DNA of 64,000 nucleotides from Streptococcus oralis (GTDB lineage: Bacteria > Bacillota > Bacilli > Lactobacillales > Streptococcaceae), in contig NZ_CP094226.1 in the NCBI RefSeq assembly GCF_022749195.1, forward strand, positions 1,390,001 to 1,454,000. Direction: 5' to 3'. Below the pieces are notes generated by a model. That model was given only the letters and a program-made list of their open reading frames with translations. It was not told the origin of the DNA and searched no databases. Positions within the stretch are counted from its first letter, which is position 1, and every line of letters starts with the position of its first letter. The position numbers were made by a program, and so were the translations under genes. This document shows, one piece after another, positions 21,612 to 25,896 of the stretch.

Positions 21612-21654
21612 GAAAACACTCGAAAAGATCACTATCACCGATTACTGGATTAAA

Positions 21655-21683
21655 TTGTAAGAGCTCCTAACTCGTGCTATAAT
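21655..21683 (+). promoter_or_regulatory. Promoter of the small membrane protein upstream of the first T-box
   Basis: TTGTAA, 17 bases, TATAAT with an extended TGC. Transcription runs into the 121-residue membrane-protein gene. Confidence 0.7.
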
Positions 21684-21764
21684 ATAAGTAGAGATTTCCC
21701 GATTATGTGGTCTACAATATCTCTCAAATATCTCTCCATTTTTGCAGATTGGAGGAATATTGCC

Positions 21765-22130
21765 ATGAAAAAATATCTTAAGTATATCCCATACTACCTT
21801 GTCATTCTCTTCTTTTACTGGCCTTTCTATGAGTTGCTTTTACTGCTGATATCTGACCCTTATACGCTAAAAGGACTTTACATTTATAACATCATCCTCT
21901 TTTCACCTTTGGTAACCTTCATCGTATCCCTTCTTTATAGCTACCGTTTCCATTTCTCACTCTGGTGGTTGCTGGGAATTGGACTGCTCTATTGCTTTAC
22001 CATCATCACTTTTGGTGAGTTCATTCTTCTTTATCTCGTAGCCTATGAAGTCTTCGCCCTTCTTGGTATGGCTTCAGGTAGAGGTCTTAGCCATCTTACA
22101 AACAAGCAGAAAAGTAAAAAAATAGGATAA
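21765..22130 (+). CDS. Small integral membrane protein
   Basis: A 121-residue protein with three to four hydrophobic segments and a basic C-terminal tail (NKQKSKKIG). I do not recognise the family. GGAGGAAT lies before the chosen ATG, which begins MKKYLKYIPYY. Its last about 65 codons fall within the block that is duplicated downstream, and its stop is followed at once by the promoter of the first T-box. A second, headless copy of its 3' end occurs after the next gene. Confidence 0.75.
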   Translation: MKKYLKYIPYYLVILFFYWPFYELLLLLISDPYTLKGLYIYNIILFSPLVTFIVSLLYSYRFHFSLWWLLGIGLLYCFTIITFGEFILLYLVAYEVFALLGMASGRGLSHLTNKQKSKKIG

Positions 22131-22135
22131 AAGCC

Positions 22136-22163
22136 TTGAAAAATCTCGCAATCATGCTATAAT
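22136..22163 (+). promoter_or_regulatory. Promoter of T-box leader A
   Basis: TTGAAA, 16 bases, TATAAT with an extended TGC. The same sequence precedes T-box B. Confidence 0.65.
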
Positions 22164-22169
22164 AATGCA

Positions 22170-22377
22170 TAGAGACAAGTCACTTAGTCCCTTTCTACTA
22201 GAGAGTGCGTGGTTGCTGGAAACGCATAGAAAGCCTAAACTGATACTACTCTACTGACTTTTATGAAAACATAAAACGGTGGCCACGTTAAAGCCAATCA
22301 GAGGTGTCCCTCTTTTTTGAGGAACATGAATGAAGGTGGAACCACGTTGCGACGTCCTTTTAGGATGTCGTTTTTTG
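22170..22377 (+). promoter_or_regulatory. T-box riboswitch A, threonine type
   Basis: A tRNA-sensing leader. The conserved T-box element AAGGTGGAACCACG (22333-22346) precedes a terminator with arms CGACGTCC and GGATGTCG and a T run; the T-box element can pair with the 5' arm region to form the antiterminator. Stem I spans the GTCA...TGAC region, and the specifier candidate is ACT in GATACTACT, a threonine codon, which fits thrS downstream. Here the first gene controlled is the 125-residue membrane protein. Uncharged tRNA-Thr should prevent termination. Confidence 0.85.
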
Positions 22378-22442
22378 TTTGGAGAATAGAGATATTGCCA
22401 GATTAAATGAAACATAGCTAAGAAAAGAAGATGGAGGTTGAT

Positions 22443-22820
22443 ATGAATAAATCATTGTCTTGGGTGATTCCCTGTGCCTTCCTTGTCGTCTATGTATGGC
22501 TAATGAAAACTCTCAGTCTATGGGGGTTAGAGTACATTGTTGTCTTTTCATTTTTTGCATTTGTTCCTCTTTTGCCATTTCTTGCTCCTTTTCTTGGCAT
22601 CTTAATGTTTTTTAAGAAAAAGAAACTCATCCTATCAGGATATTTTCTAAGTCTAACTGCTGGTATTTATTTAGTTAATGCTATAAGAAACTATCCACTA
22701 AGGATATACATGAGAGGTGAGATGACTGATGAACAATATCTGTCTCTAATCCTTTCCTTAGTATGCTATCTATTCATTTCTACGGCTTTCTTTATTTTCA
22801 GACTGAAAAAGTTAAAATGA
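22443..22820 (+). CDS. Small integral membrane protein between the two T-boxes
   Basis: A 125-residue protein with about four hydrophobic helices and a short basic end (RLKKLK). No family recognised; it is not a copy of the neighbouring 121-residue protein. The start follows GGAGG at good spacing. It is the only gene lying between the two direct repeats, so it sits downstream of T-box A and would be induced by threonine starvation. No terminator hairpin is visible after it, so read-through into the second repeat is likely. Confidence 0.7.
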   Translation: MNKSLSWVIPCAFLVVYVWLMKTLSLWGLEYIVVFSFFAFVPLLPFLAPFLGILMFFKKKKLILSGYFLSLTAGIYLVNAIRNYPLRIYMRGEMTDEQYLSLILSLVCYLFISTAFFIFRLKKLK

Positions 22821-22848
22821 AATTGATTTAGCAAATCAATTGTTATCA

Positions 22849-23048
22849 TTCTTTATAGCTACCGTTTCCATTTCTCACTTTGGTGGTTGCTGAGAATTGG
22901 ACTGCTCTATTGCTTTACCATCATCACCTTTGGTGAGTTCATTCTTCTTTATCTCGTAGCCTATGAAATCTTCGCCCTACTTGGTATGGCTTCAGGTAGA
23001 GGTCTTAGCTATCTTACAAACAAGCAGAAAAGTAAAAAAATAGGATAA
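22849..23048 (+). pseudogene. Headless 3' copy of the small membrane-protein gene
   Basis: The reading frame for the last about 65 residues of the 121-residue membrane protein is preserved to the same stop (KKIG then TAA), but there is no start or ribosome site: sequence upstream of 22849 is unrelated. It is a passive remnant of the duplication. Confidence 0.8.
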
Positions 23049-23053
23049 AAGCC

Positions 23054-23081
23054 TTGAAAAATCTCGCAATCATGCTATAAT
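23054..23081 (+). promoter_or_regulatory. Promoter of T-box leader B
   Basis: TTGAAA, 16 bases, TATAAT with extended TGC, identical to the promoter of copy A. Confidence 0.65.
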
Positions 23082-23087
23082 AATGCA

Positions 23088-23296
23088 TAGAGACAAGTCA
23101 CTTAGTCCCTTTCTACTAGAGAGTGCGTGGTTGCTGGAAACGCATAGAAAGCCTAAACTGATACTACTCTACTGACTTTTATGCAAACATAAAACGGTGG
23201 CTACGTTAAAGCCAATCAGAGGTGTCCCTCTTTTTTGAGGAACATAAATGAAGGTGGAACCACGTTGCGACGTCCTTTTATGGATGTCGTTTTTTG
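23088..23296 (+). promoter_or_regulatory. T-box riboswitch B, controlling thrS
   Basis: Near-identical second threonine T-box: AAGGTGGAACCACG at 23251-23264, then terminator arms CGACGTCC and GGATGTCG with T run (one extra base in the loop compared with copy A). It leads into the broken kinase-like gene and thrS. The specifier ACT region is unchanged. The differences from copy A, including A-to-C in the stem I distal part and C-to-T before ACGTTAAAG, do not touch the T-box element. Confidence 0.85.
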
Positions 23297-23315
23297 TTTG
23301 TCAGAAGGAGGTAGA

Positions 23316-23942
23316 ATGATGCTTTATATGATTGGCGGATCGCCTTGTAGTGGAAAATCAACAATTGCCTCACTTCTTGCTAGACGGTATCAACTACTTC
23401 ATATCAAACTGGATGATTTGATAGAAGAGATGATGAATCAAGCAAGTGCAGACTCACAGCCAATTTGCCTTCTTAGGCAGGATAGAAATCCAGAGCAAAT
23501 CTGGATGAGAAATCCAGAAGAGATGGCAGTTGAAGAATGGCGCTTTTATGAAGAGATTTTTCCTTATGTAAAATCTTACTTGATAAAAAACTAAGATAGA
23601 CCTCTCTTGGTGGAGGGGGCAGGACTTTTGCCTCACTTGGTAAAGGAGCTTGAATGCCCAGTATCCTCTTATCTATGCTTGACTCCGACAGCTGATTTTC
23701 AAAAAAAGCATTATATACAGAGAGAATGGGTTCCTTATGTCTTAGAGGGTACAACCAACCCTGAACAAGCTTTTAAAAACTGGATGCAACGAGACATTCT
23801 TTTTGCTCAAATGGTTCGTAAGGAAGCAGTGAGATTAGGCTATTCTAGCCTCATAACAGATGGTAGTCAATCAGAGAATCAAACTGCGGAAGAGGTTGCT
23901 CGGCTCTTAAAATTGTCCAACAAAAATAGAATAAATATTTAA
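23316..23942 (+). pseudogene. P-loop kinase-like gene interrupted by an in-frame stop
   Basis: Read through its internal TAA (23592-23594), the frame gives about 208 residues of a small P-loop kinase-like protein: Walker A GGSPCSGKST near the start, a charged LDDLIEEMM segment, and after the stop DRPLLVEGAGLLP, a Walker-B-like strand that ends as in nucleoside- or shikimate-kinase-like proteins. Both halves are in the same frame with nothing lost, so a single substitution (for example a Tyr codon to TAA) explains it. AAGGAGG precedes tandem ATGs. The second half has only a TTG at 23607 and no ribosome site. It lies between T-box B and thrS and shares their transcript. Substrate unknown. Confidence 0.75.
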
Positions 23943-23952
23943 GGAGAACATC

Positions 23953-25896
23953 ATGATTAACATTACTTTCCCAGATGGCGCTGTTCGTGAATTCGAATCT
24001 GGCGTTACAACTTTTGAAATTGCCCAATCAATCAGCAATTCTCTAGCTAAAAAGGCCTTAGCTGGTAAATTCAACGGCAAACTCATCGACACTACTCGTG
24101 CTATCACTGAAGATGGAAGCATCGAAATCGTGACACCAGATCACGAAGACGCCCTTCCAATCTTGCGTCACTCAGCTGCTCACTTGTTCGCCCAAGCAGC
24201 TCGTCGTCTTTTCCCAGACATTCACTTGGGAGTTGGTCCAGCTATCGAAGACGGCTTCTACTACGATACTGACAATACAGCTGGTCAAATCTCCAACGAA
24301 GACCTTCCTCGTATCGAAGAAGAAATGCAAAAAATCGTCAAAGAAAACTTCCCATCTATTCGTGAAGAAGTTACTAAAGATGAGGCCCGTGAAATCTTCA
24401 AGAACGACCCTTACAAGTTGGAATTGATTGAAGAACACTCTGAAGACGAGGGTGGTTTGACTATCTATCGTCAAGGTGAGTATGTTGACCTCTGCCGTGG
24501 TCCTCACGTTCCATCAACAGGTCGTATCCAAATCTTCCACCTTCTCCATGTAGCAGGTGCTTACTGGCGTGGAAATAGCGACAATGCTATGATGCAACGG
24601 ATCTACGGTACAGCTTGGTTCGACAAGAAAGACTTAAAGAACTACCTTCAAATGCGTGAAGAAGCTAAAGAACGTGACCACCGTAAACTTGGTAAAGAGC
24701 TTGACCTCTTCATGATTTCCCAAGAAGTCGGACAAGGTTTGCCATTCTGGTTGCCAAATGGTGCAACTATCCGTCGTGAATTGGAACGCTACATTGTCGA
24801 CAAGGAGTTAGCTTCTGGCTACCAACACGTCTACACTCCACCACTTGCTTCTGTTGAACTCTACAAGACTTCTGGTCACTGGGATCACTACCAAGAGGAC
24901 ATGTTCCCAACTATGGACATGGGGGACGGTGAAGAGTTTGTCCTTCGTCCAATGAACTGCCCACACCACATCCAAGTCTTTAAACACCATGTTCACTCTT
25001 ACCGTGAATTGCCAATCCGTATCGCTGAAATCGGTATGATGCACCGCTACGAAAAATCTGGTGCCCTTACTGGTCTTCAACGTGTGCGTGAAATGTCTCT
25101 CAACGACGGTCACCTCTTCGTTACTCCAGAACAAATCCAAGAAGAATTCCAACGTGCCCTTCAGTTGATTATCGATGTTTACGAAGACTTCAACTTGACT
25201 GAATACCGCTTCCGTCTCTCTCTTCGTGACCCTCAAGATACTCACAAGTACTTTGACAACGATGAGATGTGGGAAAATGCCCAAACCATGCTTCGTGCAG
25301 CCCTTGATGAAATGGGTGTTGACTACTTTGAAGCCGAAGGCGAAGCAGCCTTCTACGGACCAAAATTGGATATCCAAGTTAAGACAGCTCTCGGAAAAGA
25401 AGAAACCCTTTCGACTATTCAGCTTGACTTCTTGCTTCCAGAACGCTTTGACCTCAAATATATCGGAGCTGACGGTGAAGAACACCGTCCAGTCATGATC
25501 CACCGTGGGGTTATCTCAACTATGGAACGCTTTACAGCTATCTTGATTGAGAACTACAAGGGTGCCTTCCCAACATGGCTTGCACCACACCAAGTAACCC
25601 TCATCCCAGTTTCTAACGAAAAACACGTGGACTACGCATGGGAAGTGGCTAAGAAACTCCGTGACCATGGTGTCCGTGCTGATGTGGATGAGCGCAATGA
25701 AAAAATGCAGTTCAAGATCCGTGCTTCACAAACCAGCAAGATTCCTTACCAATTGATCGTTGGGGACAAGGAAATGGAAGACGGAACTGTCAACGTTCGT
25801 CGCTACGGACAAAAAGAAACACAAACTGTCTCAGTTGATGACTTTGTCCAAGCTATCCTTGCTGATATCGCCAACAAATCACGTGTTGAGGAATAA
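23953..25896 (+). CDS. thrS: Threonyl-tRNA synthetase
   Basis: A 647-residue class II synthetase that charges tRNA-Thr. An N-terminal TGS domain ([17 protein letters not shown]), the editing domain with [10 protein letters not shown], the class II catalytic core with MNCPHH (zinc-binding Cys and substrate pocket) and MIHRG, and a C-terminal anticodon-binding domain ([13 protein letters not shown]) are in the usual order. AAGGAG precedes the ATG, ten bases after the kinase-like pseudogene. Regulated by the T-box leader about 650 bases upstream. A bidirectional-looking terminator follows. Confidence 0.97.

Follow-up and report, generated by a model that had tools for sequence, protein, structure and literature searches.

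Two threonine T-boxes with a gene between them upstream of thrS in Streptococcus oralis: a probable fusion of two leader alleles

Why should a single thrS gene be preceded by two nearly identical threonine T-boxes, with another gene between them? The question is raised by a stretch of 64,000 nucleotides from Streptococcus oralis (the window in what follows; assembly GCF_022749195.1, contig NZ_CP094226.1, positions 1,390,001 to 1,454,000). An earlier note, made from the sequence alone, had described a block of about 450 bases with promoter and T-box as occurring twice upstream of thrS, and had proposed that the pair acts as a two-stage or graded response to uncharged tRNA-Thr.

Architecture of the repeated leader

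On the plus strand memb1 is followed by T-box A, memb2, a 3' fragment of a second memb1 copy, T-box B, a broken kinase-like gene and thrS, with the following features (window coordinates):

21765..22130, plus strand: memb1, a 121-aa hydrophobic membrane protein 5' of T-box A (open reading frame, listed from 21705; hydropathy)
21931..22375, plus strand: repeat block A (sequence self-comparison, alignment)
22136..22163, plus strand: promoter-like site PA, TTGAAA-16-TATAAT with TG before the -10 hexamer (consensus match only)
22162..22362, plus strand: T-box A (RF00230; Rfam, 82.0 bits, E 1.2e-17)
22245..22247, plus strand: specifier ACU (Thr) of T-box A (Rfam alignment register and fold)
22337..22340, plus strand: antiterminator bulge UGGA of T-box A (sequence, Rfam alignment)
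22349..22371, plus strand: terminator of T-box A (terminator scan; fold of 22327-22376 at -17.4 kcal/mol, z -3.06)
22443..22820, plus strand: memb2, a 125-aa membrane protein expected to be under T-box A control (open reading frame, occurrence in relatives)
22849..22856, plus strand: putative fusion junction, 8 bases common to the memb2-thrS spacer of the L079/L080 type and to memb1 (comparison with relatives)
22849..23048, plus strand: second memb1 copy, a 3' fragment (tblastn, residues 53-121 of memb1, 93%)
22849..23294, plus strand: repeat block B (sequence self-comparison, alignment)
23054..23081, plus strand: promoter-like site PB, hexamers identical to those of PA (consensus match only)
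23080..23280, plus strand: T-box B (RF00230; Rfam, 81.4 bits, E 1.7e-17)
23163..23165, plus strand: specifier ACU (Thr) of T-box B (Rfam alignment and fold)
23255..23258, plus strand: antiterminator bulge UGGA of T-box B (sequence, Rfam alignment)
23267..23290, plus strand: terminator of T-box B (terminator scan; fold of 23245-23295 at -17.9 kcal/mol, z -3.85)
23319..23942, plus strand: P-loop kinase-like gene with an in-frame stop after 91 residues (open reading frames, Pfam, relatives)
23953..25896, plus strand: thrS, threonyl-tRNA synthetase, 647 aa (TIGR00418, 764 bits against a cut-off of 383.65; Pfam)

The near-identical direct repeat with promoter-like site and T-box is present as described: 21931-22375 recurs at 22849-23294 at a spacing of 918, with 98% identity across the first 300 bases and 10 differences over 446 aligned columns (9 substitutions and one indel, the latter in the terminator loop). 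The block itself needs redrawing, since it starts inside the upstream membrane-protein gene and not at the promoter; each copy consists of the 3' part of a memb1-type gene, a promoter-like site, a full T-box and its terminator. A separate membrane-protein gene, memb2, does lie between the two T-boxes. Both T-boxes do lie in series 5' of thrS; B is, however, not directly 5' of it, because the broken kinase gene stands in between.

For memb1, which precedes the T-box in many related loci, searches at E 0.1 gave no Pfam or NCBIfam family. The sole hit for memb2 was a weak one in NCBIfam, at 15.3 bits where the cut-off is 417; the predicted structure of memb2 (mean pLDDT 60.3) was too poor for a fold search. 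A search of 197 genomes found memb2 relatives in 18; identity reached 74% or more in 11, a count that includes the window's own. The four named loci belong to S. infantis, S. peroris, S. pseudopneumoniae and S. cristatus; together with a Streptococcus sRNA match they mark the window as streptococcal, probably of the mitis group. The N-terminal piece of the kinase-like gene gives weak matches to P-loop families (best Pfam E 9.5e-06), and its C-terminal piece has no Pfam match. Of 23 related loci, 21 have a kinase frame that stays open for 193-213 codons; it is broken in the other two (G261, G263) and in the window. A count of frames ending within the slot had suggested breakage in two further genomes (G008, G184), a suggestion rejected on finding 213-codon frames open from the kinase start.

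Both T-boxes cover model positions 1-219 of 219 of RF00230. Their scores fall short of its curated gathering score of 93, and for that reason they were missing from the default Rfam scan, in which the window gave the Streptococcus sRNA match; a lax Rfam scan of 21640-23960 recovered both. The Stem I sequence, the specifier and the bulge are identical between A and B. A purine follows the specifier in T-boxes, and this rule was used for the register. The earlier note had pointed to different codons in the two specifier loops as a finding that would speak against its reading; both are ACU, in agreement with thrS downstream, and the genome has a tRNA-Thr(GGU) gene. Antiterminator pairing is present in the Rfam alignment of both elements. 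Stem I alone folds no better than shuffles (z -0.17), nor do the short pieces taken for the antiterminator (z 0.10 and 0.55), and in those short pieces the antiterminator on its own is not the minimum-energy fold.

That each T-box has its own promoter and terminator is borne out to the extent that each has a promoter-like site, by consensus match only, and a well-folding terminator. PA and PB each agree with the consensus at 11 of 12 positions; a promoter scan of the whole region found no excess of sites over shuffles (5 against a shuffle mean of 6.7), so the case for them is made by position and closeness to consensus only. From the sequence, A and B should be ordinary transcriptional T-boxes that read uncharged tRNA-Thr, and we infer from it, too, that both switches and both promoters function and that the locus is co-transcribed.

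The tRNA side of the interaction has one odd feature. The UGGN bulge is described as pairing with the NCCA acceptor end of the tRNA (PMC4695836). Four tRNA-Thr genes were found among the 50 tRNA matches listed (anticodons TGT twice, CGT and GGT), a list that is probably incomplete because tRNA-His and tRNA-Trp are absent from it. All four carry A at discriminator position 73, and A opposite the last base of UGGA should not pair; the UGGA bulge is kept in 61 of the 61 thrS T-box loci examined. The tRNA-Thr with GGT could decode ACU through wobble.

Leaders in related streptococci and the origin of the arrangement

The earlier note called for a search of related genomes for the duplication. With the T-box block as query, 280 of 284 Streptococcus genomes gave a match; two candidates per genome were scored, so that a very divergent second copy may be missed, and matches were listed for all 42 genomes, the window's own apart, with two or more. 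By this count thrS has, in nearly all the relatives, one T-box: tandem thrS T-boxes were found in 2 of 284 genomes, the window's and one other (G112), and the form containing memb2 in the window's alone. The second tandem has the order memb1, T-box, second memb1, T-box, thrS, and neither memb2 nor the kinase gene was matched in its thrS leader. Its downstream T-box scores 80.0 bits; its upstream one, at

L075:3353-3555: decayed upstream T-box of the G112 tandem

scores 39.2 bits with a bulge motif that is no longer recognisable, so the upstream member of a tandem can decay.

What lies between T-box and thrS is itself variable. In 61 loci from 60 genomes, picked from the best matches and from the memb2 relatives and hence not a random sample, the slot is short (35-132 bases) in 13, holds the kinase gene in 23 and memb2 in 14, and holds something else in 11, one of them with no 60-codon frame. 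In no other locus of this set do memb2 and the kinase gene occur together. Two further observations concern thrS itself. One genome (G031; L087, L088) has two thrS loci about 1.1 Mb apart, with different leaders and one T-box each; its assembly has 5% contamination, and the second thrS is either a true copy or a product of mixed assembly. In another (G132; L085:1963-2473) about 510 bases separate the two parts of the thrS match, whose ends overlap at residues 66-74, as after an insertion.

The window appears to combine the two occupied forms of the slot. Downstream of memb2, the sequence tracks the memb2-thrS spacer of two related loci (L079, L080) up to TTCTTTAT and then enters memb1. Among the compared loci, taken in 300-base steps, the nearest over 21900-23249, a span that includes the first part of B, is of memb2 type (G285); at 23100-24149 the nearest loci are of kinase type, and inside thrS they belong to other lineages, as in a mosaic. 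This shift from memb2-type to kinase-type neighbours indicates that two leader alleles contributed, and the missing memb2-type spacer before thrS and the truncated second memb1 make the window's state look derived. The 3' end of memb2 differs between the window and its otherwise nearest relative, G285.

Our preferred explanation, which we regard as probable, is that the window is a fusion of a memb2-type and a kinase-type thrS leader, made by recombination, probably via transformation, with one end at an 8-base microhomology. Two alleles that are separate in related streptococci, one with a T-box followed by memb2 and the other with a T-box followed by the kinase gene, would have been joined head to tail, probably during natural transformation, one end of the joint falling inside memb1. 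The pneumococcus is among the species with homology-facilitated illegitimate recombination. That process is described as having one homologous and one illegitimate end (PMC3240628); here the 8-base junction was found, and the homologous end is not placeable in the mosaic region. We infer transformation as the route, and in S. pneumoniae transformation is described as yielding tandem duplications through unequal crossing-over (PMC3784515). In that work, as in our proposal for the window, unequal recombination of taken-up DNA leaves direct repeats around a gene; the duplication described there spans 107.4 kb and has IS repeats at its borders, whereas the window's is on a scale of 0.9 kb with an 8-base junction.

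Another possibility is that memb1' and the T-box were copied in place, within one lineage, and that the cargo was exchanged later. A tree of 38 blocks was meant to separate this from fusion and did not decide: A and B group with G285 (89/91) with no internal resolution, A does not fall with memb2 leaders or B with kinase leaders, and cargo type shows no clustering across the tree (a value as low came up in 204 or 205 of 500 shuffles). Such an unresolved group fits a fusion of alleles from one population. The pairwise differences (10 for A-B, 13 for A-G285, 11 for B-G285) would also fit an older duplication in one lineage followed by cargo exchange, a history with which the near neighbourhood of A, B and G285, and of the first part of B to G285 in particular, agrees. 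It is nevertheless unlikely: that slot is occupied by memb2 in 14 further loci and by the kinase gene in 23, so that two different alleles must have contributed, and the A-B distance is about equal to the distances of A and B from G285.

Finally, near-identical repeats are a frequent cause of misassembly, and the repeat could be an artefact of that kind. We consider this very improbable, given that the assembly consists of a single contig of 1,876,737 bases, that the copies differ at 10 positions and meet at a junction with microhomology, and that different genes flank each copy.

Expected regulation by A and B

If the switches work as their sequences suggest, charged tRNA-Thr would lead to termination and uncharged tRNA-Thr to antitermination at each T-box. 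T-box A would gate memb2, and T-box B would gate the kinase remnant together with thrS; the division of labour first proposed, A for the membrane protein and B for thrS, is thus the one expected from gene order, with the amendment that B has the kinase remnant under it as well. The plus strand between memb2 and PB contains a single terminator-like site, a weak five-pair hairpin (22924-22936) inside the memb1 fragment, so transcripts through A should run into B, and the claim that read-through of A must also pass B holds to that extent. Transcripts that had passed A and memb2 would then meet B, for a thrS output of PB*r + PA*r*r, and the added flux from PA would raise the maximum and modestly steepen induction.

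Is this what the arrangement is for? One possibility is that selection favoured the tandem for a broader or steeper thrS response to threonine starvation. In the elements examined neither T-box is damaged, and in a flux model with equal promoters and the same r, a rise of r from 0.05 to 0.8 gives 27-fold rather than 16-fold induction (model numbers); trp in this genome has, in addition, a conserved order of T-box, gene, T-box. In the same model thrS receives r + r*r in place of r, at most a two-fold gain, and since the tRNA-reading parts are alike in A and B the two should share a threshold, a second one not being expected. The form seen here was found in just one of the 284 genomes of the genus, the only other tandem found has a decayed upstream T-box, and fusion of alleles explains the arrangement as it stands. 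On these grounds the evolved two-stage or graded response of the earlier note is not supported, and we judge it improbable.

The trp locus, known tandems and wider meaning

The genome holds 11 listed T-box matches, two of which form a second pair of like specificity with a gene between:

432238-432463 and 433705-433930 (L150:1739-3431; G000:C1:432238-433930): two Trp T-boxes (Rfam matches)

At this locus (L150, L151) the order is Trp T-box, a 392-aa trpB, Trp T-box, and trpE with the rest of the operon (trpEGDCFBA). The likeness to the window lies in the two T-boxes of one specificity on either side of a gene; the T-boxes at trp are, however, unlike each other and their pairing is conserved, whereas A and B are near-identical and their arrangement is rare. 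The extra trpB is 57% identical to the operon trpB, and at the threshold used a single stretch of 21 bases is identical between the two Trp T-boxes, so the Trp pair looks old. Elsewhere in the genome there is a weak T-box match of 41.3 bits (L149; G000:C1:369055-369335), and the longest frame 3' of its motif resembles, by eye, another small P-loop protein.

At least 48 of 147 genomes have a pair of Trp T-boxes within 2 kb; the interval is 1460-1598 bases in at least 39 of them and 337-735 in at least 9. All 38 of the long-interval genomes fetched match the whole of trpB, which with the window's own genome makes 39 with a full trpB. Among the nine short intervals, clear trpB remnants are present in five (G139, G118, G167, G116, G068) and a weak one, 34% over 68 residues, in a sixth (G062); in the other three (G090, G019, G025) no trpB remnant was found. 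Both Trp T-boxes were matched in all 47 other genomes fetched. T-box, gene, T-box is thus a conserved order at trp and a rare one at thrS, and trp loci can shed the intervening gene and keep both T-boxes.

Tandem T-boxes upstream of thrS are already known, and what the window adds is a new layout of a familiar switch, not a novel type of switch. A 2025 survey names ThrS as the only aminoacyl-tRNA synthetase under tandem T-boxes, two in 87% of cases and three in 13%, and defines tandem riboswitches as sharing an intergenic region and a regulated gene (PMC12452182); the arrangement in the window falls outside this definition, because memb2 (22443-22820) lies between A and B. According to a 2008 survey, thrZ and trpE in bacilli are preceded by two or three adjacent T-boxes, and in S. 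pneumoniae a Thr T-box precedes spr1471, a “Thr-tRNA ligase related hypothetical” (PMC2494555); our guess is that spr1471 is the kinase gene. The thrS and thrZ tandems of Bacillota in these two surveys resemble the window in placing several T-boxes before a threonyl-tRNA synthetase gene and differ, by the definition of the 2025 survey, in occupying one intergenic region, where the window has a gene and a second promoter-like site in between. The single thrS T-box of other streptococci is of the same family and specificity, with an accessory gene before thrS in many loci, and differs from the window, which has two. In the literature searched (supplementary tables lay outside the search) no report of the window's thrS T-box-gene-T-box arrangement was found.

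A tentative reading, possible if on the whole doubtful, is that loci of the form T-box, gene, T-box are intermediates on the way to classic tandem arrays: allele fusion would trap a cargo gene whose later loss leaves two T-boxes in one leader, the thrS leader of the window representing the first step and trp in the same genus a later one. The fusion explanation, if right, would offer a specific way, its junction still visible, for riboswitch repeats to form in bacteria capable of natural transformation, and would make the site between thrS and its T-box one of exchangeable cargo. It would also caution against assuming that a tandem riboswitch found in a single genome is adaptive.
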